Shown piece by piece: positions 14,501 through 51,020 of a stretch of 64,000 bases of DNA. The position numbers and the translations under genes are program-made. Under the pieces are notes generated by a model that was given only the letters and a program-made list of their open reading frames with translations, was not told where the DNA came from and searched no databases. Numbering within the stretch: position 1 is the first letter of the stretch; each line of letters begins with the position of its first letter. The stretch lies in the NCBI RefSeq assembly GCF_014196425.1, contig NZ_JACIDR010000005.1, forward strand, positions 124,001 through 188,000, read 5' to 3'. Origin of the DNA: Hansschlegelia beijingensis. Lineage in GTDB: Bacteria > Pseudomonadota > Alphaproteobacteria > Rhizobiales > Methylopilaceae.

Positions 14501-17500
14501 GACCCCCTTGGCCTGGCTGGAGACGAGATCGGAGACCTGCAGATCGTATGTGCCGACGGGCCGCCGAACAGGGCCCGAGAGCTTCACATCGCCTCGCAGA
14601 AGTCCGGCGAGCCCGAGATCGGAACGAAGATTGTTGGCGAGCGCGAGCGGGAGTCCCCGGATCGACGCCGTCATGTCGACATCGCCGTCGTCGAGCGGCG
14701 CGGAGCCCTTGGCGACCACGTTGAGCTCGCCGCCGGTGATCCGGGTCTCGGTGGCGACGCGCTTGCCTTCCAGCGTTCCGCGGGTGTCGACCTGCAGCGG
14801 AGGGGCGCCCTTGAGCAGCGCGGCGTCGAGACCGGAGATCCGCAGCGCATAGGTTCCGCGCGGCGCAGCGATCGGCCCGAGCAGCTTCGCCTCGCCCTGC
14901 GCGGCGCCCGCCAGGCCGAGGCGCGGGACGAAGGCGTTGGCGATGGCGAGCGGGAACGCCTTCAACGCGACGTCCAGATCAAGATCTCCGTCGCCGATCG
15001 GAGCCGCGCCCTGGACGGTGGCCTCGACGCCTCCGCCTCCCGTGATCGTGGCGTCGGTCGTGATCCGCTTCGGCGCGAGCGCGCCCTTCGCTGCGACGCG
15101 CAGCGCCGGAACGCCGCGCGCCTTGCCCGAGGCGACGTCCACGACGGTGACGTCATAGCTGCCGCTGGGGCCCGCGAGCGGTCCCGTGAGACGAGCCGTG
15201 CCGCGAAGCGTGCCGCTGACGTCCACGTCGGGCGCCACCGCGCTCGCCAGTTGCAGCGGGAGCGACCGGATCACGACGTCCATGTCGAGATCACCGTCGC
15301 CGATCGGCGCCACGCCCTGCATGGAAAGATCGACCCCGCCGCCTGTCACCACGGTCCGCGTGGTCAGACGGCGACCTTCGAGCGCGCCATGCGTGGTGAT
15401 CTGCAAGGCCGGAACGCCCTGGGCCATGGCGGCGGTGAGGCCGGAAACCTTGAGGTCGTAATTGCCGCGCGGCGCTTCGATCGGGCCGCTGAGCCGCACG
15501 TCTCCGCGCAGCGCGCCGCCGAGGCCAAGATCCGGCCGCACCGCATTCGCGAGCTTGAGCGGCAGGTCGCGGATCGCGATCGTCATGTCGACGTCGCCCT
15601 TGCCGAGCGGGGCGACGCCCTGCGCCGTGACGCTGATCCCGCCGCCGCCGGTGATGGTGGCGTCCGTTGTCACGCGCGCGCCCTCGAGGGCGCCCCTGGC
15701 CGTGATCGCGAGCGGCGGCACGCCCTGCGCCCGTCCGCTGACGAAGTCCGCGACCTTCACGTCATAGGCGCCGCGCGGCGCCGAAAGAGGACCGGCGACC
15801 TTTGCGTCGCCCTGCAGAACCCCGCCGAGCGCCAGGTCGGGCATGAAGGCGTTGGCCAGCGCAAGCGGCACGGCGCGAAGGCCGACGGACATGTCGAGCT
15901 CGCCCGCGCCCAGCGGCGCGGCGCCCTGCGCCGTCACGCTCACGCCGCCGGCGCCCGTGATGCGCGTGTCCGTGATGATCCGGTCGCCTTCGAGGCGTCC
16001 CGTGGTGGCGAGCGCGAGCGGAGGGACCTTCGCCTCGCGCAACTGCGCGATCGAGAGATCGCGCCCTTTCAGGTTGAAGGTCGCGTCCGGCGCCGATGCC
16101 AGGCCCGTGACGCGGGCGTCGCCTTCGAGCATGCCGCCGAGCCCCAGGCCCGGCGTGAACGCGTTGCCGAGCGCGAGCGGCAGCGCGCGCAAGCCGACCG
16201 TGAGGTCGAGCTGGCCGCCGGCCTTGCCGGCCACGTTCAGCACCCCGCCTTCGCCCGCCCGCAGCGAGAAGGCGTCGATGAACAACTCGGAGCCGACCAG
16301 CCGCAATCGCGCCGGAGCGTTGAGCGAGCCCGTCTTGCCGCCGCCGGCCAGATCGAGGCGGGCGACGTCGATCTTCGTCTCGGCGGGGCCGTAGACGACC
16401 CGCCCCGCGGCGGACGCCGACGAGCCCTGCGCGCTCATGTCGAGCGTGACGTCCATTCCGTCGGGCGCGCCCCTGCCGATGAGAGCGAGCTTGTCGACCG
16501 CGTGGTCGCCGTAGGAGAGACCCGCGGCGCTGGCGGTTCCGTCCAGTCTGATCTTGCCCGCGGGATCGATTACGGTCGCGGCGACGTCGAGCTGACCCGC
16601 GCGGGCGCCTGCGCCTGCGAGATCCGCGCCTTTGGCGTTGATCACGACGCGCTGGACGTCTCCCTCGGCCGACAGCGCCACGTCGCCTTTGAGGCTCCCC
16701 GAAAGCTCGGTCAGCGCCAGCGCGCCCAGGTCGGAGAGGTCCGCCGCGTCGATCGCCAGTTCGCCCGTCGCGAGCCCGGTCGGCGCAACCGTGACGTCGC
16801 CCTTGATGACCGCGGAGGCGATCGTCACGTCGAGTGCCTCGACACGACGGGCCCCCGAATCCTCCGTCACGATCCGGCCGCCGCCCCGGAGCGGCTCGCC
16901 GTCGAGCGACCCGGCCACGACGAAGACGCCGCGAAGCGTGTCCGTCACGTCCGTGGCGTCGACGTCGAAGGTGAAGTCCTTCAGTGGCCGATCCATGGCG
17001 CGGCCGTCGGGAACGGACAGCCGGGCCTTGAGCCCGAGGTCCTCGAGCCGCCCGCTCAGGGTCGCGTCGACCGTCGCGGCGCCGCTCAGTCGGGAGTCGA
17101 CCAGGGCCAGATCGTCGACCACGGCCCGCGCCTTGGCGTCGGCGTTCGTCTGCGTCGCGGAGCCGTCGGCCGTCAGCCGCACATGCTCGCCGGTCACGCG
17201 CAGGTCACGGAACGCGAATGAGCCGTCCGGCGCGCGCGTCACCCCGCCGCTGAGCGAGACTGCGCCGCCGGACAGCGCGTCGACCTGCGAATAGCCAGTC
17301 TTGAGCCCGCTGCCCTCCCCCACGATATCGGCCGACAGGCGCGACAGATCGTAGGTGAGGTCAAAATTGGAGGTCAGGTCGACCGCGCCGGCCAGCGGCC
17401 GGCCGGCAAGCGCCGCAAGGGTGGAAAGGTCGCTCGCCTTCAGTGTCGCCCGCCCCTTCGCAGCCTCAGGCGAGACCTGCCCGGCATAGGTCGCGACGGC

Positions 17501-18916
17501 GTCCGAGAGCTTGATCTCGGCGCGGCGCACGTCGGCGTCGCCCCGCAGCGTGGTGGCGCCTTCCGCTGACAGGGTGAGATCGCGCCCGAGCGTGAACAGT
17601 CGGTCGTCCGCGAATTTGACCCCGGTCGCGGTCGCGTCGATCACGGCGGAGACGCGCGTGTCGTTCCGCGCCAGCGGACCGTCCGGGGTCGCGGTCAGGA
17701 CGATGCGCGCCGTCTCGGCGCCGCCCTGAGGCGCGGCCAGGCCGCCGCCGTCGATCGTCGCCTTGACCTCCGGATGATCCAGCGGCCCGTTCGCCGTGCC
17801 GCTGGCGGCCAGCGAGACCCAGCTCAGGCCGGTCGGCAGCACGCCATCGAAGCGTCGGACCTCGCCGGCCTTGAGGTCGTAGGAGATCGCGATCGTCTCC
17901 GCCGTGGGATCGACGGTTCCGCGCACGCCGGCCTGGAGCGATCGCGCGTCGAGCGTGACGTCGCTGATCTGGATCGGCCCCTCGTCGGGCGCGAGCGCCT
18001 CAGCCGTGAGCCTGGTCGTTCCTTCCACCAGCGACGCGTAGGCGGGCTGAACAAGACGGCTGACGTCGCCGTTGAGGCCGATCTTGATGCGGCGCGCCTC
18101 GCCTTCCCGGTTGACCTCGGCGGCGCCGTCGATGCGGCCCTGCTCGCCGGCGATCAGAACGAGTTGCGCCCGCAACGCGTCCAGCGTGCCGGACCCCTGC
18201 ACGCCGACATTGATCGGCGGCAGCCCCGGTATCTCCGCGAGACGGGCCACGAGACCGCCGGCGGGCTCGCTCCCCTTGAGCGTGAGCTCGACGCCGTCGG
18301 TGGCGGGGATGAACCTGCCCTTGCCCTCGATCTGCCCCGCGACGCCGTCGATGCGGCGCAGCTCGAATTCCGCCGCGACGCCTTCGGACGGCTGGCGGAT
18401 CGTCGCGGACGCGCTCGCCGACAGTCTCGCGGGAACGCCGATGACGGGCTGGGCGAGATCCAGATCGGCCAGCAGCAACCGGCCCAGGCGGATCTCGATG
18501 GGCAATTGCGGGAACAGCGGGGCGTCCGGATCGACCGGAACGTCCGGCTCATCGGACGGCGGGATCTCCGGCGTCCGGGCCACCTGGACGTGCCCGACAT
18601 CGACCAGATCGATGGTCAGCTTGCGGGAGAACAGCTGCAGCGGCGACCAGACGATGCGGGCGCGGTCGACCGCGAGCCACTCGCCCTCGCGGTCGGCGAG
18701 CCGCAGGTCCCGAACGGTGAGATCCGTCGGGAACGAGCCCTCGATCTTGCCGATCGAAATCTTCGCGTCAGGAGAGCTCGCGTAGCGCGAGGTGAGGCTT
18801 GCGACCGTGGCGAGGCCCGGCGCTGTGGTGAGGTAGAGAAAGGCGGCCGCCAGCACGACCACCGGGATCAGCAACAGGACGCCGAGCACGAGAAGGGCGC
18901 GCTTCAGGATGGCCAT
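11516..18916 (-). CDS. tamB: Translocation and assembly module subunit TamB, repeat-expanded
   Basis: An inner-membrane-anchored periplasm-spanning AsmA/VPS13-like protein that works with TamA and is implicated in lipid transport and outer-membrane protein assembly. An N-terminal anchor (ALLVLGVLLLIPVVVLAAAFLYL, residues ~7-29) precedes long beta-rich repeats. The C-terminus has the DUF490 signature (FLAETRAGDITAQVVITGTA, DEVLARLLFNKSSGELSPTQ) and ends VQWDY. At 2466 aa it is about twice E. coli TamB (~1260 aa). The extra length is an 11-copy tandem array at residues 912-2036, described separately. It lies 49 bp downstream of tamA. The reading frame is intact throughout, with no frameshift. 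Confidence 0.92.
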   Translation of the reverse strand: MAILKRALLVLGVLLLIPVVVLAAAFLYLTTAPGLATVASLTSRYASSPDAKISIGKIEGSFPTDLTVRDLRLADREGEWLAVDRARIVWSPLQLFSRKLTIDLVDVGHVQVARTPEIPPSDEPDVPVDPDAPLFPQLPIEIRLGRLLLADLDLAQPVIGVPARLSASASATIRQPSEGVAAEFELRRIDGVAGQIEGKGRFIPATDGVELTLKGSEPAGGLVARLAEIPGLPPINVGVQGSGTLDALRAQLVLIAGEQGRIDGAAEVNREGEARRIKIGLNGDVSRLVQPAYASLVEGTTRLTAEALAPDEGPIQISDVTLDARSLQAGVRGTVDPTAETIAISYDLKAGEVRRFDGVLPTGLSWVSLAASGTANGPLDHPEVKATIDGGGLAAPQGGAETARIVLTATPDGPLARNDTRVSAVIDATATGVKFADDRLFTLGRDLTLSAEGATTLRGDADVRRAEIKLSDAVATYAGQVSPEAAKGRATLKASDLSTLAALAGRPLAGAVDLTSNFDLTYDLSRLSADIVGEGSGLKTGYSQVDALSGGAVSLSGGVTRAPDGSFAFRDLRVTGEHVRLTADGSATQTNADAKARAVVDDLALVDSRLSGAATVDATLSGRLEDLGLKARLSVPDGRAMDRPLKDFTFDVDATDVTDTLRGVFVVAGSLDGEPLRGGGRIVTEDSGARRVEALDVTIASAVIKGDVTVAPTGLATGELAIDAADLSDLGALALTELSGSLKGDVALSAEGDVQRVVINAKGADLAGAGARAGQLDVAATVIDPAGKIRLDGTASAAGLSYGDHAVDKLALIGRGAPDGMDVTLDMSAQGSSASAAGRVVYGPAETKIDVARLDLAGGGKTGSLNAPARLRLVGSELFIDAFSLRAGEGGVLNVAGKAGGQLDLTVGLRALPLALGNAFTPGLGLGGMLEGDARVTGLASAPDATFNLKGRDLSIAQLREAKVPPLALATTGRLEGDRIITDTRITGAGGVSVTAQGAAPLGAGELDMSVGLRAVPLALANAFMPDLALGGVLQGDAKVAGPLSAPRGAYDVKVADFVSGRAQGVPPLAITARGALEGARVTTDATITGGGGISVTAQGVAPLGKGDVDMTIAIRDLPLKLANAVRPDLGLGGALRGDVRLSGPIEAPRGNYDLKVSGLTAAMAQGVPALQITTHGALEGRRLTTRTVVTGGGVDLSMQGVAPIGDGDLDMDVVIRSLPLQLASAVAPDVDVSGTLRGTARLTGPLAGPSGSYDVTVVDVASGKARGVPALRVAAKGALAPKRITTDATITGGGGVEATVQGAAPIGDGDLDLDVALKAFPLAIANAFVPRLGLAGAAQGEAKLLGPIAAPRGTYALRISGLDAALLKGAPPLQVDTRGTLEGKRVATETRITGGELNVVAKGSAPLDDGDVDMTASIRGLPLALANNLRSDLGLAGLLRGDVKLSGPVRRPVGTYDLQVSDLVSSQAKGVPPLQVAARGDLQGARVTTDATVTGEGGISLTAKGSAPLGDGDVDMAVAVSHLPLALANSVRPELGLAGTVRGDATVKGPVTAPRGDYDLTIADLTSTAAKGVPALKVVTKGAFEGQRVTTDTAITGGGGIEATARGSAPIGEGDIDMDVVLRELPLALANAVQPSLGLAGSLRGTAKVSGPLAAPRGTYDLAVAGLTSARARGAPPLQIAARGELQGERVTTDAVVTGAGGINLTAKGSAPLGGAGAVDMAVAVSDLPLSLANAVSPELGLGGKLKANAQVGGTIAAPQGTYDLTVTDLTAAQARGVAPLQVVAKGNLEGQRVTTDAAITGGGGVRATAKGAIPLGSGDADITIDVARLPLAIANGFMPSLGLGGALAGSARVTGPLAAPGGRYDLRVTNLTSAQARGVPAMTVTAKGDLANGRVTTDAAVTGGGGLRLTANGSAGLSSVGPLDLTVALRSVPLALANGFSPELGAQGTLQGDAKLGGTIAAPTGSYTLRVTSLSTAATRSAGVPAAQIDSRGQLQGDRVSTDTVVTAARGLRVTARGTVPLGSGNLDLAVAGRAPLAFLNDTLSISGDRIDGVATFDVKLGGPTTAPRVNGTGRLENGSYFNRAAGLQLRGIQASIVADGPNIDVRSLRATTRNGGTISGSGRVAVNPGAGFPGEITFRANNAELIGTDIVTAITDADLRLQGPLARRPVVRGVIRTRSVEIQIPDRIPARYTPLPNVRHKGAPPAVLRQFNSVNAGKKKGGSEEGFLATLDIDVEADNRIFIRGMGMQAEAGGQIKITGTSANPIPVGAFQLRPGRSQITVIGHRLEFTRGSVSFAGDLDPSLDFLAETRAGDITAQVVITGTASAPQVTFTSNPTLPTDEVLARLLFNKSSGELSPTQALQLAQAVAEYSGVGGGGSGPLESLRKGLGVDSLDLGAGQGGGFGVGVSRYISDNIYLGFRTGTTPEDTAITADIDLTKHVKARAEAGAAGNASAGVAVQWDY
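12809..16183 (-). repeat. Eleven tandem ~102-codon repeats within tamB
   Basis: Each unit runs from LPLALANAV through [39 protein letters not shown] and APLGDGDVDM to the next LPLAL. Units 1-11 cover residues 912-2036 (1125 residues, mean 102). All units are in frame, and indels are confined to a few residues. A degenerate twelfth start (APLAFLND) follows. Copies differ at many positions, so the array is not a recent exact duplication, but the block motifs are retained in nearly every copy. Confidence 0.9.
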
Positions 18917-18965
18917 CAGGTCGCCTCCCCCGCCTCGGCGGACAGGATCGTCGCCGCTCCGGTCA

Positions 18966-20936
18966 TCAGAACGCCTGCCCGATGCCGATGTAGAGCGCGA
19001 CGCGCGAGTCGTTCTTGCTGCGGCCCACCACCGGGGTCGCCACGTCGACGCGGATCGGGCCGATCGCCGTATAGTACCGCAGGCCGACGCCCGCGCCGAC
19101 CCGGATGTTCTCGCTGAAGTCCGGATAGGTCTTGTCGAAGGCCGCTCCGGCGTCGACGAAGGGCACGATCCCGATCGTGTCCGTCACCTTGATGCGCGCC
19201 TCGATCGAGGCCTCGAGCAGGCTCCGGCCGCCGATCGGCGTATCGTCGTCGCATTTCAGCGCGTGCTTCGGCCGCGGAACGATCGGGGTGCAGTACGGGC
19301 TCGCGCTCTGATAGGCGAAGCCGCGGATCGACCCGCCGCCGCCGGCGAAGAAGCGCCTGTTGGCCGGGACGTCCGCGAGATCCTTCGGCCCGACGATCGA
19401 CCCGACGCCGATCTTGCCGGCCAGGATGAAGCGGTGCGCCTCGTCGAAGCTGAGATAGCTCGAGACCTGGCCCTTGAAGATGTTGAGGCTCTTGGTGTCG
19501 CCCTGGAAGTTGTAATAGGGCGCGGCGCTCAGCGTCGCCCGGATGCCCTTGGCGGGATCGAGCGCGCTGTCGGTGCTGTCGAAGGTGGCGAGCAGCGGGA
19601 CGCCGGCAAGCAGGTAATCCTTCTCGCCGAAGGTGTCCCGGATGGTCGAAGCCTCGACCTCGACGCCTGCCTGGATAGACAGCTCGCTCGTCAATCGCCG
19701 CCGGATCGCGGCGGCGCCGCGGACGCCGTCGCGGTGATAGGCGTCCGGCCGCTCGCGCATCGCCTCGAGATCCACCAGCAGATCGTCGAACCCGGTCCAG
19801 ATCCCCGGCTTCTCGAAATGCGCCTTGAGCCCGTACTCGTAGTCCCGGGGCTTGTTGGTGATCAGCCGCGACGCGCCGGCGTCGATCCGCAGCTTCTCGG
19901 CGCCGCCGAACAGATTGCGATGGCCCCAGAAGGCGTTGACGCTGGCGCCGTCGATCGTGTCGTACTTCACGCCCGCGCCGACGTAGCGGAACTTCTTTTC
20001 CTCGACCTCGATCGCGACGGGCACGCGGCCCTGGGCGTCCGGGGCCGTGGCCTCACGGATCCGGATCGAGGAGAACACATCGAGCTTGGCGAGCTCGGTG
20101 CGGAGCTCGGCGATTTTCTTGGGGCTGTAGCGCTCCCCGGGCCGGAAGGGCACGCGTCCCAGCACGACCGCGGGGTCGACTTCGCGCGTCCCCGTGACCG
20201 TGACGTTCCCGAACGGGGCGCGCGGTCCGGCGGCGACCTTGATCGTGACGTCGAGATGATGTCGGGAATGGTCGGCGACGACGTCGCGACCTTTCACGGC
20301 CGCGAACGGATAGCCGTCGTCCCGCAGTTCGTCGACGATCCTGGATTCCGCGGAGAAGATCGCCGTCGACGGCGCAGGTTGTCCGGGAACGAGGCCGACC
20401 TTGCGCGGTTCGAGCGACGCCGCCTTGCCGGAGCCTGAGTCAAGGCTCTCGATGCGCACGCGCCCCAGCGTGAACACGGGCCCGGGACGCACCCGCACGA
20501 CCACCGGCACCGGCCTCCGCGCCCGCTGCGCGGCGTCGGCCGCACTCGCGGAAGTGACGGGAACGCCCGCCACCGTCACGTCCACGGTCGCCGCGTAGCG
20601 GCCTGTGGCCGCGAGGGCTGCGGCGATGCGCTCGATATCGGCCTTGGCGCGGCCGACGAGTCCAGGCGGGCCGGGCGGCGCGTCCTTCTGGAGCGTCTGG
20701 AGCGAGGAGGTGTCGCGCGCGATCTTCTCGACGGCCGCATCGCCGCCGTCGACCACGAACCGGGTGTCGTAGCTGATGCCCGGAACCGCGGCGGCCGCCG
20801 CCGGCGGAGGGCCGGAGGGAGCCTGAGCAAGCGCGTCGCCGGGACCGCCTGCAAGACAGGCGGCCGCGACGACGAAACCCGCCGCGCTTCTCCGGCTCTT
20901 ACGCGCCACGCTCAAAAGAGCCGCCCCCCGCATCAC
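18966..20936 (-). CDS. tamA: Translocation and assembly module TamA (Omp85 family)
   Basis: A 656-aa outer-membrane protein with signal peptide (SAAGFVVAAACLAGG..ALA), periplasmic POTRA domains (for example FTLGRVRIESLD and APFGNVTVTGTREVDPAVVLGRV) and a C-terminal 16-strand-type barrel. The barrel includes the Omp85 motif GGGGSIRGFAYQS and ends IGIGQAF with a terminal Phe. It pairs with TamB, encoded immediately downstream, to form the TAM complex. The start ATG 20936 gives a conventional signal peptide. The gap upstream to the MerR gene is 66 bp and the gap to tamB is 49 bp, so tamA-tamB are likely one operon. Confidence 0.93.
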   Translation of the reverse strand: MMRGAALLSVARKSRRSAAGFVVAAACLAGGPGDALAQAPSGPPPAAAAAVPGISYDTRFVVDGGDAAVEKIARDTSSLQTLQKDAPPGPPGLVGRAKADIERIAAALAATGRYAATVDVTVAGVPVTSASAADAAQRARRPVPVVVRVRPGPVFTLGRVRIESLDSGSGKAASLEPRKVGLVPGQPAPSTAIFSAESRIVDELRDDGYPFAAVKGRDVVADHSRHHLDVTIKVAAGPRAPFGNVTVTGTREVDPAVVLGRVPFRPGERYSPKKIAELRTELAKLDVFSSIRIREATAPDAQGRVPVAIEVEEKKFRYVGAGVKYDTIDGASVNAFWGHRNLFGGAEKLRIDAGASRLITNKPRDYEYGLKAHFEKPGIWTGFDDLLVDLEAMRERPDAYHRDGVRGAAAIRRRLTSELSIQAGVEVEASTIRDTFGEKDYLLAGVPLLATFDSTDSALDPAKGIRATLSAAPYYNFQGDTKSLNIFKGQVSSYLSFDEAHRFILAGKIGVGSIVGPKDLADVPANRRFFAGGGGSIRGFAYQSASPYCTPIVPRPKHALKCDDDTPIGGRSLLEASIEARIKVTDTIGIVPFVDAGAAFDKTYPDFSENIRVGAGVGLRYYTAIGPIRVDVATPVVGRSKNDSRVALYIGIGQAF

Positions 20937-38149: not shown

Positions 38150-38716
38150 ATGTCCCCAGACCCCCGCGCCGAGCTCGACCCTGCAGCGAGACGTTGGCTG
38201 GGCAAGGACGCGGAGGCGCTGACGGAGGCTGAAGCCCGCGTGCTGAAGCACGCCCGGCGGCGCAGCGTCCTGATCCGGCGTCCTGCCGGCGACGAACAGA
38301 AGACGTTCGGCGAAAGTCTCGCCGACCAGGTCGCGTCCTTCGGCGGCTCCTGGACGTTCATCATCAGTTTCTGCGTGTTCCTGTTGCTGTGGGCCGGGGC
38401 CAATCTCTGGCTGCTGTCGCAGCCCTTCGATCCCTACCCGTTCATCTTCCTCAATCTGATGCTGTCGATGCTTGCGGCGCTTCAGGCCCCGGTGATCATG
38501 ATGAGCCAGAACCGCCAGGCCATCAAAGATCGCGAGAACGCCGCGCGCGACTACGAAGTGAACCTGAAGGCGGAGATCGAGATCATGGGGTTGCACGAGA
38601 AGCTGGATCGGCTGAGGGACGAACACATCATGACGCTGATCGCGAAGCAGCAGGAGCAGATCGACCTCCTCACCCGCCTCGTGCGCAGGAACGACGAACT
38701 CGGGGGCGGCCGTTGA
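38150..38716 (+). CDS. DUF1003 membrane protein
   Basis: A 188-aa protein with a soluble N-terminus and two adjacent membrane helices (WTFIISFCVFLLLWAGANLW, FIFLNLMLSMLAALQAPVIM). A charged C-terminal helical tail (LHEKLDRLRDEHIMTLIAKQ) probably forms a coiled coil in the cytoplasm. The FGGSWTFI...PYPFIFLNLMLS...ApvIMMSQNRQ pattern is diagnostic of DUF1003, whose function is unknown. It follows trpC by 15 bp and overlaps the next gene by TTGA. Confidence 0.88.
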   Translation: MSPDPRAELDPAARRWLGKDAEALTEAEARVLKHARRRSVLIRRPAGDEQKTFGESLADQVASFGGSWTFIISFCVFLLLWAGANLWLLSQPFDPYPFIFLNLMLSMLAALQAPVIMMSQNRQAIKDRENAARDYEVNLKAEIEIMGLHEKLDRLRDEHIMTLIAKQQEQIDLLTRLVRRNDELGGGR

Positions 38717-39090
38717 ACGCACAGATCGGGAGCGCTGAGGCGGTCTCTCCTCAGGTCGGCGAGGAGCGGGTCGAGGCCGTATTCCGCAACGGCACGATCA
38801 CGGCTTACGGCATCACCGTCTCGTTCACCTTGGGGTTCCTCTCGCAATGGGCCTCGAGCGCGGACGCGTGGCGCCTGTATGATGTGCCCGCCGTCGCCGC
38901 AGTCTTCGCAGGCGGCATGTTCCAGATCTGGGCGCTGGCTTTGCTTCTGCCGGTCGAAGGTTTGGTGAAGACGATCTATGACCGAGCCACTCGCCTTTAT
39001 CTGATCGGCCTGGCGCTCACCGGAACAGGCGTCGTGACGGCGGTCTCGTTCGACGTCGCCAGAGGAATCCTTGGCAAGGACGTGACGTGA
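38713..39090 (+). CDS. Small membrane protein of unknown function
   Basis: A 125-aa protein read from TTG 38713, which overlaps the DUF1003 stop as TTGA; the next in-frame ATG is well inside the hydrophobic core. It has three probable membrane helices: [39 protein letters not shown] and [21 protein letters not shown] do not recognise the family. Its 3' end overlaps moaC by GTGA, so it is embedded in the trp-moa transcription unit and is probably translated with its neighbours. Confidence 0.7.
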
Positions 39091-40916: not shown

Positions 40917-41630
40917 ATGTTGACCCGCAAGCAGTACGAGCTTCTGCGCTTCATTCATGAGCGGCTGAAGGAGGCCGGCGTTCCGCCCTCCTTCGAGGAG
41001 ATGAAGGAGGCGCTGGACCTCAAGTCGAAGTCCGGCATTCACCGGCTGATCATGGCGCTCGAGGAGCGCGGTTTCATCCGCCGCCTCCCGAACCGGGCGC
41101 GCGCGCTTGAGGTGCTGAAGCTGCCCGAAGCCGCGGCCCCCTCCGTGACGCGGCCGGCGACGCGGTTCTCTCCGAGCGTGATCGAAGGCAACCTCGGACG
41201 GCTCAAGCCTGCCTCGTCGAGCGACGATGACGGCGAAGACCGGCGGTCCGCAGTGCATGTGCCCGTCATGGGGCGCATTGCGGCCGGCGTGCCGATCTCG
41301 GCGATCCAGACGAGAAGCCACACCATCGCGGTGTCGCCGGACCTGATCTCCACCGGAGAGCACTTCGCGCTCGAGGTGCGAGGCGACTCGATGATCGAGG
41401 CCGGCATTCTCGACGGAGATCTGGTCCTCATCCGGCGCCAGGACACGGCCGACACCGGCGACATCGTCGTGGCGCTGGTGGACGAGGAGGAAGCGACGCT
41501 GAAACGTCTGCGGAAGCGCGGCGCCTCCATCGCGCTCGAGGCGGCGAACCCCGCTTACGAGACGCGGATCTTCGGGCCCGATCGGGTCGCGATTCAGGGA
41601 CGGCTCGTGGGCCTGATCCGGCGTTACTGA
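40917..41630 (+). CDS. lexA: SOS-response repressor LexA
   Basis: A 237-aa repressor. The N-terminal winged helix ([20 protein letters not shown] through [16 protein letters not shown]) binds operators. The C-terminal S24 peptidase domain has the self-cleavage site Ala123-Gly124 (GRIAAGVP), Ser158 ([11 protein letters not shown]) and Lys196 (ATLKRLR). RecA-stimulated autocleavage is therefore expected. ATG 40917 gives the family start; an ATG at 40890 is in frame but adds nine unconserved residues. The 3' end overlaps the convergent comEC by 7 bases. The gene carries its own LexA box. Confidence 0.96.
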
Positions 41631-43942
41631 TCATCAGGCGAAACGGCGTCGTCCGCGTCGGTCTCGTCCGGGGGATCGGTGGGATCGACCGGCGGCGGCT
41701 CGGGCTCCCGGGTGAGCGGCGGCGTCGCCGCGAAGATCAGTCGGGTCGCTGCCTCGGGAGGCGGCGCTGCGGGCTGCCGGGTCCAGGGCCGGGAGCCGGA
41801 CGGCTCGAGAGCCGCGACGCCTGAGAAGCCCTTCCCGGAGCGGGTCAGGCTCAGGGCCCCGGTGGCGGCCAGGATCTTCCGGTCTATGACCGCCGCCGTT
41901 TCGGCGCATGCCGCGGGCGCCTCGCGCCGGGTGACCACCAGCGTCGCGCGTCGGCAGTCCTCCTCCAGGCCTCTCGCATCCCTGGAGAGCGCCACCAGGC
42001 CGCCGCCCGCGAGCGGCGCGACGCAGCCGTAGGCGTCGCAGCGGACGCCGCGCGCCGCCTCTCGCGTGGGCGCGGACGAGCCGTCCGCCGCGAACCAGAC
42101 CTTGGCCGCGAAACCTCCCGGGCTGGCGCCCACAAGCGCCAGCCGGCCATCCGGCGTCCGCGCCGCGAGCGCCCGGCCGGACGCGTCGATGACGACGTCG
42201 GGCCGCGCCGGAAAGGCTGCGAGCGCCAGCGCCGCCGCGAGGATCGGCGCGCCGCCCCAGCGCAGCGGCGTTCGCCAGAGGCAAAGCCAGGCCAGCCCCA
42301 GCGCGAACAGGATGAGCGCTTCCGGCCCGAACGCCACCACGTTGCGTTCGGCGCCCGGCCACGACGCAACCGCGTGCGCGATCGCCAGGACGCCCTCGAG
42401 CCCAAGGCCCATGAGCCGCCACCAGAAGCCGTCCAGCCCGAGCGGCGCGAAGATGAGGCCGCCGATCGCCGCCGGCATCACGACAAGCCCGATGAGCGGC
42501 TCAGCGAGCGCGTTGCCGGCGAGCGCGTAGGGCGTGAGGCGCTGAAAGTGGTAGGCGGCGAACGGGGCGGTGGCCGCCCCGGCGACCAGCGTCGTCATCA
42601 CCGCGAGCGTGGCCGCCCGCCGCAGGCGGCGCATGACCGCGGCCCCGCGCGAGGCCGGGGGCGGCGCGGGCGGCAGGTCGCGCCTTGTCTCGAACCAGGC
42701 GACCAGCCCGGCGACGGCGGCGAACGACATCTGGAAGCTCGGCCCGAGCAGCGCCTCAGGGGTCCAGGCGGCCACCAGCAGCCCGGCGAGCGCGAAGTTG
42801 CGGGGGGCGAGCGCGGGCCGACCCAGCATCACGGCGATCAGCGCGACGGCGATCATGACGTAGGAGCGCTGCGTCGCGACCTCCGCGCCGGACAGCGCGA
42901 GATAGAAGGTCGCGCCGGCCAGCGCGATCGCAGCGCCGATCTCCTTGACCGGCAGCCTCAGGGCGGCGCGCTGGGACAGCGCCAGAGACGCCCGGGCGAA
43001 CCAGAACAGGGTTCCCGCGACCAGCGCCATGTGGAGGCCGGAGATCGAGAGGATATGGCTGAGGCCGGCCGCACGCAGATCGTCCGACACCGATTGCGGG
43101 ATTGGGCCCTGCACGCCGGTGACGAGCGCGGCCGCGACCGCGCCTTCGGGTCCGCCGACGGCGGACGTGATGCGCGCCGTGAGCCGCGCGCGCAATCGCT
43201 CCAGCGCAGCCGCGGCCCTCGCCGCGAGGCCCTCGGGAACGGCGGGCAGAAGGCGGATGTCCTTCGCTCCGAAACCCGTCGCTCCGATCTTCTCGAAGAA
43301 CGCGACCCGCGCGAAATCATAGCCTCCGGGCCGCACCGGTCCTTCCGGCGGCCGCCACAGCGCGGTCAGCGAAACACGGTCTCCGGCCGCGAGCGGCGGA
43401 TCGGCGCGCGCCGTCACCCGGACGCGCGCCGGCAGATCGTCCGCCGCCAGCGTCGTGAGGCGCTCCGGCTCGATCGTCAGCCGCCGCATGCCGCGCGCCC
43501 GCGGCTCCACCAGCAGGACGCGGCCGACGACCTCGCCGCGCAGCGGTCGATCGAGCGCGGGGGCCTCCGCGCGCACGGTCGCGAGCTTTCCGGCGAGGAA
43601 TCCCGCGCCGCCGAAGGTCACGGCGAGCGCGAGCCACAGCGTCAGGAACTTGCCGCGGGCGAGCCAGAGCAGTGCGAGACCCACCGCCGCCGGCGCCGCG
43701 CTCGCCCAAAGCTCCGGCTCGCGGCTCGCCGAGAAATAGATCACCGCGCCGCAGCCGAACGCGACAGGGAGCCACAAGGCCGGCCGGCCGGCCTCCGCCT
43801 CCTCGGCCAGCAGGGCGAGCATCCGGTCGGAGAGCCGCAGCCGCCATGCGCGCGCGGCCGCGGAAGGCTCGCCCGCCCGGAGCTCCGGGATGGCCGCCGC
43901 GCGCGCTCTGCCCCGCCCTGGCCGCCCCGGCTGCTCAGCCAT
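41624..43942 (-). CDS. comEC: ComEC/Rec2-family DNA-uptake channel protein
   Basis: A 772-aa polytopic membrane protein. The DUF4131 N-terminal region is followed by the Competence domain with [18 protein letters not shown] and [19 protein letters not shown]. The C-terminal part resembles a beta-lactamase-like domain but lacks an obvious HxHxDH metal motif, as is common in alphaproteobacterial members. ComEC forms the inner-membrane channel for transforming DNA; competence of this organism is not established. ATG 43942 (MAEQPGRPG) is chosen; ATG 43972 is possible. The position between lexA and gltX is usual for rhizobia. Confidence 0.9.
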
Positions 43943-45633: not shown

Positions 45634-46962
45634 ATGAATGCGACGACCAGCACGCTCAAGGTTCAAGAAGGCTCGCCAGAAGCCGCGCATCTGAGCGTCG
45701 AAGGGGCCGAGCTTGCTCTTCCGATCAAGCACGGCTCCATCGGCCCGTCCGTTCTCGACGTCCAGACGCTCTACAAAGACACCGGACTGTTCACCTACGA
45801 TCCGGGCTTCACCTCGACCGCGAGCTGCGAGTCGAAGATCACCTATATCGACGGCGACGCCGGCCTGCTGCTCTACCGCGGCTATCCGATCGACGAACTG
45901 GCCGAGCACGGCGACTTCCTGGAGACCTGCTACCTGCTGCTGTTCGGCGAACTGCCGACCTCGGCGCAGAAGGCGGAGTTCGACCGGCAGGTCACGCGCC
46001 ACACCATGGTCCACGAGCAGATGTCGCGCTTCTACAGCGGCTTCCGCCGGGACGCCCACCCGATGGCGGTGATGTGCGGCGTCGTGGGCGCCCTGTCGGC
46101 CTTCTACCACGACTCGACCGACATCACCGATCCCGAGCAGCGGTTGATCGCCTCCATCCGCATGATCGCCAAGACGCCGACGCTCGCCGCGATGGCGTAC
46201 AAATATTCGATCGGCCAGCCCTTCGTATATCCGCAGAACGCGCTCGATTTCTCCGCGAACTTCCTGAACATGTGCTTCGCGGTGCCGTGCGAGGAGTACA
46301 AGGTCAATCCGGTGCTCGCGCGCGCGATGGACAGGATCTTCATCCTGCACGCCGATCACGAGCAGAACGCCTCGACCTCGACGGTTCGGCTCGCAGGCTC
46401 TTCGGGCGCAAACCCCTTCGCCTGCATCGCGGCGGGCATCGCCTGCCTCTGGGGCCCCGCCCATGGCGGAGCGAACGAGGCCGCCCTCAAGATGCTCGGC
46501 GAGATCGGCACGCCCGACAAGGTCGATCTCTACGTCAAGAAGGCCAAGGACAAGAACGACCCGTTCCGCCTGATGGGCTTCGGCCATCGCGTCTACAAGA
46601 ACTACGACCCCCGCGCCAAGATCATGCAGAAGACCTGCCACGAGGTCCTCGCTGAGCTCGGCATCCAGGACGACCCGCTGCTCGAAGTGGCGATGGAGCT
46701 CGAGAAGATCGCCCTCAAGGACGAGTACTTCATCGAGAAGAAGCTCTATCCGAACATCGATTTCTATTCGGGCATCACGCTCAAGGCGATGGGCTTCCCG
46801 ACCGCTATGTTCACGGTGCTGTTCGCCGTGGCGCGCACCGTCGGCTGGATCGCCCAGTGGAAGGAGATGGTCGAGGATCCGTCGCAGCGCATCGGCCGGC
46901 CGCGCCAGCTCTACACCGGCGCGCCGGAGCGGGATTACGTGCCGATCAGCGAGCGCCGCTGA
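45634..46962 (+). CDS. gltA: Citrate synthase
   Basis: A 442-aa hexameric-type citrate synthase of the TCA cycle. Catalytic residues appear in [35 protein letters not shown] and [16 protein letters not shown]. The N-terminal domain with [19 protein letters not shown] is characteristic of the Gram-negative type I enzyme. ATG 45634 fits homologues; the upstream frame from 45583 is not conserved. It ends at a strong bidirectional terminator. In rhizobia its convergent neighbour is usually lpxB; here it is fabZ. Confidence 0.96.
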
Positions 46963-46980
46963 GGCCGCGCCCTGAGCAGG

Positions 46981-47012
46981 AAAAAAGCCCCGCCTTCCGG
47001 CGGGGCTTTTTT
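46981..47012. terminator. Bidirectional intrinsic terminator between gltA and fabZ
   Basis: AAAAAAGCCCCGCC (46981-46994), loop TTCC, then GGCGGGGCTTTTTT (46999-47012). This perfect 14-bp stem has A/T tracts on both sides, so it can stop transcripts from either direction. The fabZ stop codon (47014-47012) touches its edge, leaving no space for further leftward genes. Confidence 0.93.
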
Positions 47013-47494
47013 CATTTGTCGACCAGCATCGCCGAGATTTCGGCCTCGCAGACCAGCGTCCCGGCGACCTTGGCCTCGCCGCGGAACCACCACATGTTCG
47101 CGCGCTTCTTGATCTGCGTCATGTGGTACTCGACCACATCCCCGGGCGTCACCGGCTTGCGGAACTTCGCCTTGTCGATCGTCATGAAGTAGACGATCCG
47201 CGGCGAGCTCGGGGCCGTGCGCGACGCCACGCAGATGGCGCCCGCCGTCTGCGCCATGCCTTCGATCAGCAGCACGCCCGGCATCACCGGGGACTGGGGA
47301 AAGTGTCCCTGGAAGTGCGGCTCGTTGAACGTCACGTTCTTGATCCCGACGCCCGACCTGTCGCCGTCGATATCGATGATCCGGTCCACGAGCAGGAACG
47401 GGTAGCGATGCGGCAGATAGGACATGATCGTCGCGATGTCGGCGGCGGCGAGCGCGGTCGGCTGCGAGGATGGCGTCGCGGTGGCGTCGTTCAT
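47012..47494 (-). CDS. fabZ: 3-hydroxyacyl-ACP dehydratase FabZ
   Basis: A 160-aa hot-dog-fold dehydratase of fatty acid elongation. The catalytic His is in [20 protein letters not shown], with Glu a few residues on. The opening [17 protein letters not shown] is diagnostic and distinguishes it from FabA. The start ATG 47494 is preferred over the longer frame from 47551. In most rhizobia it is followed by lpxA, lpxI and lpxB; here transcription ends immediately after it. Upstream is the shortened lpxD. Confidence 0.95.
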
Positions 47495-47523
47495 TTTGCT
47501 TTTCCCTGAGCGCCGACGCGGCT

Positions 47524-47577
47524 CTACGGCCGTAGCGTCAACGCGTGACATCCAAGAGGTCCGCCGGAGCCCGGCGG
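47524..47577 (-). promoter_or_regulatory. Palindromic elements in the lpxD-fabZ gap
   Basis: The 126-bp gap holds a perfect 12-bp palindrome CTACGGCCGTAG (47524-47535), with TTGACG directly beside it on the minus strand (47541-47536). It also holds a 7-bp GC hairpin CCGCCGG-AGC-CCGGCGG (47561-47577). The first could be an operator or promoter element for fabZ and the second a weak terminator after lpxD. There is no T-tract, and neither role is shown. Confidence 0.3.
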
Positions 47578-47620
47578 CTGTTCGGGGGAGCCTCCGCCCG
47601 CTGGGGCGCTCCCCTCTGCT

Positions 47621-48493
47621 CTACGTGGCGGCCTCGAGATTCCCCACCACCTCGAAGTCGTCGAGCGTCGCGCCAGGCGGGACCTGACTGCGGGCAAGAA
47701 CGACGCAATGCCGGCCGACAGTGACGTTGTGGCCGATCCGGACAAGGTTGTCGATCTTCGCGCCCTCCCCGATGACCGTGTCACGATCGGCCCCCCGGTC
47801 GACGGTGGCGTTCGCGCCGATCTGCACGTCGTCCTGGACGATGGCGCGACCGGTTTGCGGGACCTGCGCGTGGCCGCCGCTCCCGGAGGCGAGCGCGACG
47901 CCGTCCTGACCGATGCGGGCGCCCTGGCGGATGATCACCCGGTCGCCGATCAGCGCATGGACGATCGTGGCGCCGGGCCCCACCACGCTGCCGCGGCCCA
48001 GCCGGACGTCGGCGCCGATGACGGCGTTGGCGCAGATCACCGCGCCGCACCCGATCTCCGCGCGCGGACCCACCACCGCTCCAGGATCGACCGTGACGTC
48101 GTTCTCGAGCTTCGCCTCCGGATGAATGACCGCTCCCGGGGCGACGCCCTCGCCGAACACCGGCTGGGGCCGCAGCGCGCTCGGGAACAGCGCGGCGGCC
48201 ACCTGCGCCAGCGCCTTCGCCGGCTCCGGCGTGATCAGCGCCACGGCGCCCTCGGGGGCCAGCTCTTCGAATTCGGCCGACGCGAAGACCACGCCCGCCA
48301 GACTGCAGCCGACCGCTTCGGCGTCCTCGGAACCTGACAGCGAGGCGGCGTCGGAGGGGCCGGCCCAGCCGATCGGGGCGACGCCTGTGATCGAGGCGTC
48401 CTCCGGCCCACGGGCGCGGCGGGCGCCGGTCAGCGCGACCAGCGCCTGCAGGTCGAGCGGCTGCGGCGGGGGGAAGAAGCGGGGTTCGGTCAT
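47621..48493 (-). CDS. lpxD: C-terminally truncated LpxD homologue (possible decaying gene)
   Basis: A 290-aa protein; LpxD is normally about 340-350 aa. It N-acylates UDP-3-O-acylglucosamine in lipid A synthesis. Present are the N-terminal uridine-binding domain (LDLQALVALTGARRARG, VAPIGWAGPSDAASL), a left-handed beta-helix of hexapeptide repeats, and the catalytic His255 in IDNLVRIGHNVTVGRHC. The frame stops after DDFEVVGNLEAAT, where homologues continue for roughly 60 more residues (last coils, a second conserved His and the C-terminal helix). The loop usually GQDGFG...GHxKIPQ reads GQDGVALASGSGGHAQVPQT. The other two frames downstream show no LpxD-like sequence. Activity is doubtful. Confidence 0.8.
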   Translation of the reverse strand: MTEPRFFPPPQPLDLQALVALTGARRARGPEDASITGVAPIGWAGPSDAASLSGSEDAEAVGCSLAGVVFASAEFEELAPEGAVALITPEPAKALAQVAAALFPSALRPQPVFGEGVAPGAVIHPEAKLENDVTVDPGAVVGPRAEIGCGAVICANAVIGADVRLGRGSVVGPGATIVHALIGDRVIIRQGARIGQDGVALASGSGGHAQVPQTGRAIVQDDVQIGANATVDRGADRDTVIGEGAKIDNLVRIGHNVTVGRHCVVLARSQVPPGATLDDFEVVGNLEAAT

Positions 48494-48587: not shown

Positions 48588-51020
48588 TTAGAACCGGGTG
48601 CCGCCGGAGAACCGGAACACCTGGGTCTCGTCATACTTCTCCTTCGACAGCACCTTGGCGAAGTCGAAGCGGATCGGGCCGAGCGGCGAGTTCCAGAGGA
48701 TCGAGGCGCCGACAGACGAGCGGATCTTCTTGCTGTCCTTGGCGTTCACGAACACCGTGCTGGTCCCGCCGCCGCCGCCCGCGCCGTTCGGAACGCCGCT
48801 GATGCTCTTGATGCCGTCATAGCCGAACACGGTGCCGGCGTCGGCGAAGACCGCGCCCTTGAGACCGACCTCACGAGGCAGCCCGAAGATCGGGAACTGC
48901 GCTTCGGCGGAGGCGCCGAAGTAGGTCGTGCCGCCGAGCGGATCGTCGTTCGGGCTGCCGACGAGCGGGTTGGCCGTTCCGAGGTCGCGAGGACCAAAGC
49001 CCTGCGGCTCGAAGCCACGCACGAGGTCGGGGCCGCCCGGGAAGTGATCGAGCACGCGCAGATCCTGGCCGCCGAACGCTTTCACGTGACCGCCCTGAAG
49101 GCGCAGGATGCCGACCACGTCGTCGACGAACAGCGGGTGATAGTACCGGCCGTCGAAGGTCCCGCGGACATACTTGGCGTCGCCGCCGAGGCCCGCCACG
49201 TCGCCCTTGAGCTCGGCGTAGATGCCCTGGGTCGGGTTCACCGGGTTGTCGAGCGTGTTGTAGATCAGCGACAGACCGGCGAGCGACGTGAGCGTCTTGC
49301 CTTCGGCTTCGAAGATCGCCGCCGACGCGCGGTCGCGGTTCACCGCGCCGTTCTTGTCGAAGATGTCGCGATAGCGGCCCGGGATCTTCAGATCCTGTTG
49401 GTAGAGCTGATACCGCGTTCCGACGGTGAACTCGTCCGTGATCGGGAAGCCGAAGCGGAGGCCGCCGCCATAAGTGTCGACCTTGTAGGACGAGTAGTCG
49501 GTGTCGTCGCGACGCTTCACGTAAGCGTCGACGCCGGCGGACACGCGATAGCCGAGGAAATACGGCTCAGTGAACGAGAAGTCGAAGCCGGACGTGTTCT
49601 GGCCGAACTGAGCCGCGATGCGGGCGTACTGGCCGCGACCGAGGAAGTTGCGCTCGCCGAGCGCGATCTCGCCGATGATGCCGTCCTGCGAGGAGTAGCC
49701 GCCGGCGACCGAGAACTCGCCGGTGGGCTGATCCTCGACGTCCACGTTGACGATGACGCGATCCGGCGCCGAACCCGGCTCCGTCGTGATGCGCACGTTC
49801 TTGAAGAAGCCGAGCGCCTTGATGCGCCGCTCCGCGCGGTCGATGAAGATCTGGTTGTAGGCGTCGCCTTCGCCGATATCGAACTCGCGGCGGACGACGT
49901 AGTCACGCGTGCGGGTGTTGCCGCGCACGTTGATGCGCTCGACGTAGACCCGCGCGCCTTCCTCGACGACGTAGGTGATCGAGATCGTGCGGTTGTTGAT
50001 GTCGCGATCGCCGCGAGGACGGACCTGCGCGAAGGCGTAGCCGCGCGAGGCCAGCTCGAGCGACATGTTCTCGACCGACTTGTCGACGTCCTTGGCGCTG
50101 TAGACCGAGCCCGTCGAGGACTGGATCCGGCTCTTCAGGGTCGCGGCGTCCACCTCGGCGACATGCGACTCCACGTCGACAGGACCGAAGCGGTACTGCT
50201 GTCCTTCGTCGACCACGATCTTGAGCGTGAACGCGTTGGTCTCGCGGTTCAGATCGGCGGTCGCCGAAACGACCCGGAAATCAGCGTAGCCGTGGTTGAG
50301 GTAGTACTTGCGAAGCTGCTCGAGGTCGGCGTTGACGCGGTCAGGATCGTAGACGTCGGACGTCTTGATCCAGCTCAGCCAGTTCGACTCCGTGGTCGAC
50401 ATCTGGTCGCGCAGCGTGCCGTCGGAGTAGGCCTCGTTGCCTTCGAATTCGATGGCCTGGATCTTGGTCTTGTCGCCCTCGTTGATCTCGAAGACGAGAT
50501 CCACGCGACCGTTCGGCTGGCTGATCGTCTTCGGCTCGACGGTCACCTGATAGCGGCCGGAGCGCCGATAGATCTCGGTGATGCGCTGGGCGTCGGCCTG
50601 CACGACGGCGGGGTTGAACGGCCCGCGCGCCTTCGACTGGACCTCCGAGGTCAGGACCGTGTCCTTAACCTTGGAATTGCCCTCGAACGCCACCCGGTTG
50701 ATGACCTGGTTCTCGCTGACGTTCACGACGATGCCGCCGCCGGCGCGCGTCACCCGCACGTCGGAGAACAGACCGCTCGCGTAGAGACCGCGGATGCCCT
50801 CATCCACGACCGCCTGGGTCAGCGGGCCACGGCCCGTGAAATAGGAACGGATCGTCTCCGCATCGACGCGCTGGTTGCCACGGACGGTGATGCCGTTCGC
50901 GCTCTGCGCACTGGCCGCCGTAGCGCCGAGAAGGCCGGCCCCCACGCCCGCTATCATCGGCGCGACCGCGACCGACGAGGCAAGGGCAAGGCGCCCGACT
51001 ACTCGAACCATACGCTTCAT
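48588..51020 (-). CDS. bamA: Outer membrane protein assembly factor BamA
   Basis: An 810-aa Omp85 protein that inserts beta-barrels into the outer membrane. A signal peptide (VAVAPMIAGVGAGLLGATAASA) is followed by five POTRA domains (first: ITVRGNQRVDAETIRSYF) and a C-terminal 16-strand barrel. The barrel has the conserved lid motif GPDLVRGFEPQGFGPR and ends FRFSGGTRF with a terminal Phe. ATG 51020 (MKRMVRVVGRL) yields the signal peptide at the terminus; the longer frame to 51128 crosses the promoter gap. It follows rseP by 174 bp. It looks fully functional, in contrast to the adjacent lpxD. Confidence 0.96.
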   Translation of the reverse strand: MKRMVRVVGRLALASSVAVAPMIAGVGAGLLGATAASAQSANGITVRGNQRVDAETIRSYFTGRGPLTQAVVDEGIRGLYASGLFSDVRVTRAGGGIVVNVSENQVINRVAFEGNSKVKDTVLTSEVQSKARGPFNPAVVQADAQRITEIYRRSGRYQVTVEPKTISQPNGRVDLVFEINEGDKTKIQAIEFEGNEAYSDGTLRDQMSTTESNWLSWIKTSDVYDPDRVNADLEQLRKYYLNHGYADFRVVSATADLNRETNAFTLKIVVDEGQQYRFGPVDVESHVAEVDAATLKSRIQSSTGSVYSAKDVDKSVENMSLELASRGYAFAQVRPRGDRDINNRTISITYVVEEGARVYVERINVRGNTRTRDYVVRREFDIGEGDAYNQIFIDRAERRIKALGFFKNVRITTEPGSAPDRVIVNVDVEDQPTGEFSVAGGYSSQDGIIGEIALGERNFLGRGQYARIAAQFGQNTSGFDFSFTEPYFLGYRVSAGVDAYVKRRDDTDYSSYKVDTYGGGLRFGFPITDEFTVGTRYQLYQQDLKIPGRYRDIFDKNGAVNRDRASAAIFEAEGKTLTSLAGLSLIYNTLDNPVNPTQGIYAELKGDVAGLGGDAKYVRGTFDGRYYHPLFVDDVVGILRLQGGHVKAFGGQDLRVLDHFPGGPDLVRGFEPQGFGPRDLGTANPLVGSPNDDPLGGTTYFGASAEAQFPIFGLPREVGLKGAVFADAGTVFGYDGIKSISGVPNGAGGGGGTSTVFVNAKDSKKIRSSVGASILWNSPLGPIRFDFAKVLSKEKYDETQVFRFSGGTRF

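Follow-up and report, generated by a model that had tools for sequence, protein, structure and literature searches.

In the window analysed here (the whole stretch of 64,000 nucleotides from contig NZ_JACIDR010000005.1 of Hansschlegelia beijingensis), gltA and fabZ are convergent neighbours, and the lipid A genes lpxA, lpxI and lpxB, which an earlier sequence-only reading had expected between them, as is usual in rhizobial genomes, are missing. The locus raises the question of whether a diderm bacterium has dispensed with the canonical lipid A pathway and, if so, which lipid could serve in its stead and by what route that lipid would reach the outer membrane.

The gltA-fabZ junction and the lipid A genes of the genus

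The site without lpxA-lpxI-lpxB is a gap of 49 bp (46963..47011), in line with the figure of about 50 bp given by the sequence-only reading. On its left lies the citrate synthase gene gltA (45634..46962, + strand, longest ORF from 45583; TIGR01798, 794.6 bits against a cut-off of 485.15), whose stop is at 46962, and on its right the retained 3-hydroxyacyl-ACP dehydratase gene fabZ (47012..47494, - strand, longest ORF to 47551; NF000582, 194.4 bits against 113), whose stop codon occupies 47012-47014. Folding and a consensus scan place a hairpin with a T run, a probable intrinsic terminator between gltA and fabZ, at 46980..47013 (+ strand). It has 15 pairs with A and T runs on its flanks and a minimum free energy of -28.6 kcal/mol (z -5.15; none of 200 shuffled sequences was as stable). 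This terminator had been described as bidirectional, with its T-tract at the fabZ stop; the hairpin and the T run reaching the stop codon stand, and the scan called a single site, on the + strand only (0.4 expected). By eye, the A run 5' of the stem makes the element symmetrical.

Upstream of fabZ lies a shortened LpxD homologue of 290 aa that lacks the C-terminal part (47621..48493, - strand), followed by an intact bamA as the right border (48588..51020, - strand; TIGR03303, 751.1 bits against 297.15). Most of the neighbours named in the sequence-only reading were recognized by NCBIfam, with trpG, trpD, trpC, lexA, gltX and dxr passing a curated cut-off and gltA, fabZ, bamA, rseP and uppS passing a cut-off, as did frr, pyrH and tsf. 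Two were best matches below cut-off (moeA, 349 bits against 440; cdsA, 91.9 bits against 385), and moaC and comEC were unconfirmed, the ORFs at 38150-38716, 38713-39090 and 41624-43822 having no NCBIfam match at E 1e-40. The expected order, bamA-lpxD-fabZ-lpxA-lpxI-lpxB with convergent gltA, does exist in a congener (G004), where gltA adjoins lpxB and is followed by gltX and a comEC-like gene.

The genome that holds the window (G000) is a draft of 3.66 Mb in 12 contigs with a completeness of 100. Profile searches, in which all first-look candidates of this genome were scored for LpxA, LpxC, LpxK and WaaA, returned no canonical LpxC, LpxK or WaaA over cut-off and no LpxA over cut-off, the best of four weak LpxA matches being the lpxD homologue. 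By tblastn, in which 14 of 19 first-look candidates were scored, no LpxI, LpxB or DUF374 protein was found. The claim that the canonical lipid A pathway has been lost or replaced is thereby supported, since no intact set is present in G000 and the same searches do find these genes in five of the congeners. Within the sensitivity of the searches, the gene loss is firm.

Thirteen genomes of the genus were compared. Canonical lpxC and lpxK were over cut-off in the same five (G003, G004, G006, G009 and G011, hereafter the lipid A genomes) and in none of the other eight, which we refer to as lipid A-less; waaA was over cut-off in the same five, with sub-threshold matches in G005 and G007. A joined tblastn query across 35 genomes placed LpxA, LpxI, LpxB, LptC and the DUF374 protein in these five and in none of the eight; outside the genus, the same query found LpxI, LpxB and DUF374 in G041 and G119 only, and LpxA in those two genomes with weak hexapeptide-type matches in G039, G051 and G086. 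At the locus itself, lpxD (357 aa)-fabZ-lpxA-lpxI-lpxB is present in five of the 13 and lpxA-lpxI-lpxB is absent from the other eight, so that the comparison with close relatives called for by the sequence-only reading separates the same two groups. Some calls carry qualifications: lpxA, lpxI and lpxB of G009 were named by profile, LpxI below its curated cut-off, and lpxB of G011 comes from tblastn and not from a gene call. While fabZ was matched in all 13 genomes, it directly adjoins gltA in seven of the eight lipid A-less ones, the exception being G007, which is 88% complete. More widely, among the best 80 FabZ loci in named records, LpxA lies nearby in 79, the exception being a single metagenome-assembled genome (L065).

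A phylogeny built from BamA, RseP, Dxr and FabZ (1676 columns; the 13 genomes with seven outgroups, an eighth that had FabZ only having been dropped) gathers the eight lipid A-less genomes in a single clade (ultrafast bootstrap 97), with the five lipid A genomes as its sister (96). All five genomes of the same family outside the genus have lpxC over cut-off. Because the eight form one clade and these outsiders are all lpxC-positive, the most economical interpretation is an ancestor with lipid A and a single loss inside the genus.

Export genes and the sphingolipid-type cluster

The loss extends to part of the lipopolysaccharide (LPS) export system. Between pepA and lptD, the five lipid A genomes carry lptF-lptG (in G003, G009 and G011 on the strength of the PF03739 profile search and not of gene calls), and in the eight lipid A-less genomes the pair is absent from this site, pepA and lptD lying 430-693 bp apart. 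Similarly, G009 and G003 carry lptC between the gene for a 204-aa 3'-5' exonuclease and lptA, a place where G000 and G005 have none. The LptC profile recognized the same five genomes and found nothing in the eight, save one match in G005 that stays under the threshold and falls within the LptD frame; several of the lpxC-less families beyond the genus do have LptC. The canonical LPS export set (LptB2FGC-A-DE) is therefore incomplete in G000, with no lptF or lptG beside lptD and no lptC beside lptA.

Other components are kept. LptD is present in all 13 genomes, LptA in all eight genomes of the genus that were tested (six of them lipid A-less), and an ABC ATPase occupies the LptB position adjoining LptA in G000 and G005. 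For lptD, dN/dS computed on longest ORFs was 0.10-0.45 in five lipid A-less pairs vs 0.33 in two lipid A pairs. The lipid kinase, GNAT, ABC and LpxC-like rows of that table were set aside because of wrong extensions, gaps or paralogues, and lptA and lptB were computed separately. The G000-G005 pair gave 0.22 for lptA and 0.28 for lptB, vs 0.36 and 0.14, respectively, for the lipid A pair G003-G009. These values indicate continuing constraint on all three genes, although for lptB it is somewhat weaker than in the lipid A pair.

A second lptF-lptG pair is present in all 13 genomes (fragmented in G007) and is located in a sphingolipid-type gene cluster. Counts of PF03739 genes are consistent with this arrangement: four in each of the five lipid A genomes, two in seven of the eight lipid A-less ones and four fragments in G007. 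In G000 the cluster (contig C7, loci L160/L161) comprises 12 genes, namely those for an MsbA-like ABC transporter, a fatty acyl-AMP ligase (NF006624, 825.8 bits against a cut-off of 600), an ACP (PF00550, 45.5 bits against 20.8), a serine palmitoyltransferase (SPT; NF047599, 676.1 bits against 500), a 319-aa protein with no Pfam match, a lipid kinase, a CDP-alcohol transferase, a 145-aa protein with a sub-threshold HIT match, LptF2, LptG2 (PF03739, 202.4 and 205 bits, respectively), a GNAT protein and a MobA-like nucleotidyltransferase. The ten best solved relatives of the SPT are all named serine palmitoyltransferase, and LptF2 aligns with a solved LptF over residues 16-368 of 408. The cluster thus unites the SPT, ACP and acyl-AMP ligase of a Caulobacter-type sphingolipid cluster with LptF2 and LptG2 inside it. 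Judged by family, the lipid kinase, CDP-alcohol transferase and MobA-like nucleotidyltransferase would fit a route to ceramide phosphoglycerate (CPG/CPG2), and the GNAT protein is a candidate ceramide synthase. No CerR was found beside SPT in the genus, the best tblastn match in G000 being a partial one, at 29% identity, to an epimerase, and the profile search for LptC2 returned no LptC-family match in G000.

All 12 cluster genes were matched in 12 of the 13 genomes, although in G008 and G010 the last gene runs off the stretch, and several genes of G007 show frame breaks. In G011, eight of the 12 were matched and the contig ends ahead of the remaining four. Since the five lipid A genomes carry the cluster as well, its presence alone is insufficient for loss of lipid A.

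Association of lpxC loss and sphingolipid genes across the order

From the order we drew 199 genomes evenly, each with completeness of at least 95, and found lpxC over cut-off in 175. The 24 lpxC-less genomes comprise 21 without any match (one of them presumably G202) and three, G000, G008 and G012, with a divergent paralogue only. SPT, for which at most eight first-look candidates were scored per genome, was over cut-off in 27 of the 199: 21 of the 24 lpxC-less genomes vs six of the 175 lpxC-positive ones (G003, G004, G006, G009, G041 and G119; Fisher p 4e-20). G011 was scored as a miss despite holding most of the cluster, and counting it in gives 7/175 and p 2e-19. When the genus itself was set aside, SPT was found in 17 of 20 lpxC-less genomes vs two of 170 lpxC-positive ones, and by family, a count over 44 families made by hand and the sole means by which relatedness was handled, the figures were 7/9 vs 2/35 (p 3e-5). 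A further 13 genomes, all lpxC-positive (families f20 and f45), had SPT matches of 457-479 bits, below the cut-off. In the control search, E. coli, Caulobacter and Bacteroides gave matches at the threshold used, and two of 14 controls were over cut-off.

Retention of the export bridge follows the same division. LptA was found in each of the 21 lpxC-less genomes that carry SPT; the three that do not carry it (G063, G076 and G094) had no LptA (p 5e-4). Among 20 SPT regions from other families, 17 contain a homologue of LptF2 or LptG2 (that of G036 weakly) and 17 have a CerR match; the loci of lower GC content (L184, L196 and L198) were read by tblastn. No lptF2G2 was seen near SPT, in the stretch read, in the lpxC-less genomes G039, G151 and G031, the G031 region ending at a contig end. 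When 62 sequences were placed in a tree, LptF2 proteins linked to SPT, from eight families, grouped together with local support of 1.00 (0.88 when G036 is included), apart from canonical LptF; LptG was unresolved in this tree. Taking the genus and the other families together, at least two losses of lipid A in Hyphomicrobiales are the simplest reading.

A proposed replacement for lipid A and its significance

From the observed gene losses and retentions, the linkage of the cluster to lptF2G2 and the order-wide association, we infer as the likely explanation that a phosphosphingolipid, exported by LptF2G2 with shared LptB, LptA and LptD, replaces lipid A; what the lipid is, how it is exported and what it does are all read from genes. 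An ancestor within the genus would have lost lpxA, lpxI, lpxB, lpxC, lpxK, waaA and the linked DUF374 gene, and with them the LPS-side inner-membrane export parts lptC, lptF and lptG. The cell is still diderm, as it retains bamA, tamB, lptD and a tamA-like gene. The 12-gene cluster would make a phosphosphingolipid of the ceramide phosphoglycerate type in lipid A's stead, and its MsbA-like ABC transporter could flip it. LptF2-LptG2 of the cluster, working with the shared ATPase LptB and, in the eight genomes, without a recognizable LptC, would then extract the lipid, and the shared LptA and LptD would deliver it to the outer leaflet. Counting against this reading are the failure to find CerR in the genus cluster, the lack of an LptC in the eight genomes, which bears on how LptF2G2 would connect with LptA, and the three lpxC-less genomes with SPT in which the stretch read showed no lptF2G2 near it.

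Three other explanations have to be weighed. First, the main substitute for lipid A could be hopanoids, ornithine lipids or some other glycolipid, with the sphingolipid a minor component and LptF2G2, LptA and LptD serving something else. Presence of the cluster in congeners that still have lipid A would suit such an arrangement; it is nevertheless improbable, considering that within the genus it is the LPS-side lptC, lptF and lptG that are gone and the pair of the sphingolipid cluster that is kept, and that across the order lpxC loss, SPT and LptA retention co-occur.

Second, an unusual lipid A might still be made by diverged enzymes, with an LpxC-like paralogue and the shortened LpxD acting on another acyl-sugar nucleotide. 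The lpxD earlier described as damaged is shortened: the protein of G000 has 290 aa vs 357 aa in the five intact relatives, and it passes the NF002060 subfamily cut-off (246 vs 207) but fails that of the LpxD equivalog TIGR01853 (213 bits vs 242.5). None of the eight remnants reaches 357 aa (called lengths 203-317 aa), and, aligned with the five 357-aa LpxD proteins, all lack the C-terminal part. One motif in this alignment carries the catalytic histidine in E. coli LpxD; G000 and G010 retain that residue, and in the other six remnants it is substituted or absent. The LpxD homologue of G000 is probably not a working LpxD, to judge from these sequence features. Six lipid A-less pairs gave an LpxD dN/dS of 0.25-0.43 vs 0.06-0.15 in four intact pairs, a rise that is only partly specific because the control gene fabZ rises as well (0.16-0.34 vs 0.07-0.23). 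The remnant is therefore relaxed and not neutral, so that a residual or new role is possible, and the idea that it is neutral debris is unsupported by ratios well below 1. A contig scan with the shortened LpxD as query confirmed no relative.

The one LpxC-type gene of G000 is a divergent paralogue whose protein retains the TVEH, HRxLDxVGD and GH motifs, which we take to be catalytic in LpxC. Genes for an MFS transporter and for a Cu-Zn superoxide dismutase adjoin it, and those for IMPDH and GMP synthase lie no more than 7 kb away. We did not count it as a stand-in for LpxC or as evidence for lipid A, since it coexists with canonical lpxC in the five lipid A congeners and is missing from two of the eight lipid A-less genomes, G002 and G005, which have no LpxC-type match whatsoever. 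Thus, the retained motifs and the constraint on the LpxD remnant speak for continued synthesis by diverged enzymes, and against it stand the equal presence of the LpxC-like gene in lipid A congeners, its absence from G002 and G005, the altered LpxD histidine in six of eight remnants and the lack of LpxA, LpxB, LpxK and WaaA; we regard it as very unlikely.

Finally, mere relocation of the lipid A genes, the alternative named in the sequence-only reading, or their concealment in an assembly gap, is scarcely credible: G000 is a draft of 12 contigs in which 14 of 19 tblastn candidates were scored, yet its completeness of 100 and the genome-wide searches contradict relocation, LpxA (by tblastn), LpxI, LpxB, canonical LpxC, LpxK and WaaA are jointly missing from eight related genomes, including G012, a single contig, and gltA directly follows fabZ in seven of the eight.

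Replacement of lipid A by an exported phosphosphingolipid has partial precedents. In Caulobacter crescentus, a 17-gene region (CC_1168-CC_1152) holds ceramide and phosphosphingolipid genes with LptC2, LptF2 and LptG2, and its authors suggest, without having tested it, that these three proteins move phosphosphingolipids (PMC11324152). The likeness to the genus lies in the grouping, in one region, of SPT, ACP, an acyl-activating enzyme, a second LptF and LptG, a candidate ABC flippase, a lipid kinase and a nucleotidyltransferase. However, Caulobacter still makes lipid A in nature, whereas in the genus cluster neither lptC2 nor cerR was found, the latter one of the five Caulobacter ceramide genes, and the eight lack canonical lptC, lptF and lptG; the regions were compared by gene families. 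For some genes of the Caulobacter region, the enzyme family used in this comparison is our assumption. A further study shows that the nucleotidyltransferase CpgD makes CDP-glycerate for a lipid that partly supports Caulobacter without LPS (PMC12275187); the genus cluster too has a nucleotidyltransferase, likened to CpgD by family. Lipid A-less mutants of Caulobacter depend on an anionic sphingolipid (Zik et al., 2022, as cited in PMC10964400 and PMC12275187). In both cases a sphingolipid would support a cell without lipid A, for the genus as proposed from its genes; the mutants differ in that the loss in the genus is natural, fixed in a clade and accompanied by loss of LPS-side Lpt genes.

Outer membranes with sphingolipids and no lipid A are already known in kind. 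Sphingomonas has no lipid A in nature and produces sphingolipids (PMC10964400), and the sphingolipid genes of Sphingomonadales are described as scattered (PMC11324152). The gene content found here agrees with an outer membrane of the Sphingomonas type, predicted in this case from genes, in that lipid A is naturally absent and sphingolipid genes are present; Sphingomonas differs in belonging to another order, and the loss described here falls within one genus that has intact sister species. Wolbachia and its relatives have lost lipid A genes (PMC3087551) and are likewise Alphaproteobacteria without the pathway, but that group is intracellular, whereas the genomes here measure 3.6-5.5 Mb and keep LptD. 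The literature we searched, which covered few subscription papers, contained no account of this group losing lipid A, and a search on sphingolipid transport and Lpt found no papers. What appears new, as far as we searched, is that the natural loss falls within a single Hyphomicrobiales genus and that lptC, lptF and lptG have selectively gone, whereas lptD (with lptA and lptB where tested) and the sphingolipid-linked lptF2G2 have stayed.

The reason that most diderms cannot do without lipid A is an open question (PMC10964400), and the route of bacterial sphingolipids from the inner to the outer membrane is given as unknown (PMC11324152). We lean modestly towards the view that Hyphomicrobiales have naturally swapped a sphingolipid for lipid A more than once, handing the Lpt bridge (LptB, LptA and LptD) to a dedicated LptF2-LptG2, in this genus without a recognizable LptC. 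What divides the sister clades is the lipid A pathway together with lptC, lptF and lptG, a natural deletion that separates cargo-specific from shared Lpt parts. If the proposal is true, LptD would export lipids in general, with the permease determining which cargo it carries, and the sister species studied here would offer a natural experiment on the usual essentiality of lipid A.

Homologues of lipid A enzymes in the genus

The shortened LpxD homologue (window 47621-48493) has a dN/dS well below 1 among the genomes that lack lipid A, which suggests that this protein may have taken on a new role. A divergent LpxC paralogue is encoded on the minus strand of H. beijingensis contig C6 (108790-109716; 7791-8717 of the locus L024). 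Its score against the best model, PRK13187, is 347.5 bits, under the cut-off of 423, and the LpxC motifs are conserved. The paralogue occurs in 11 of the 13 genomes of the genus, with or without lipid A alike, and may act as a deacetylase of another acyl-sugar.

Outer membrane assembly and epimerase genes

In window 11516-20756, tamB forms a long open frame of 2466 aa and an Omp85 gene of tamA-like type is likewise a long open frame, indicating that genes of outer membrane protein assembly have been retained. An epimerase gene adjoins lptA-lptB of H. beijingensis (contig C2; L202:8933-9928), and matches to CerR-like epimerases also lie close to lptA in several other genomes searched. In G007, a genus member without the lipid A locus (L178/L179; one contig, 5.5 Mb, completeness 88%), several genes of the sphingolipid-type cluster carry frame breaks, which are probably sequencing indels.

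Loci and genomes elsewhere in the order

Among the best 80 FabZ loci in named records, 79 have an LpxA match. The Hyphomicrobiales MAG GL140_1_metabat_75 (L065) carries both lpxD and fabZ; its 14.5 kb locus holds no LpxA match. Finally, genome searches of the order found no lpxC, no serine palmitoyltransferase over the cut-off and no LptA match in G063 and G094 (family f46) or in the 1.4-Mb genome G076 (f21), and these absences point to a possible complete loss of both lipid A and the Lpt bridge in all three.
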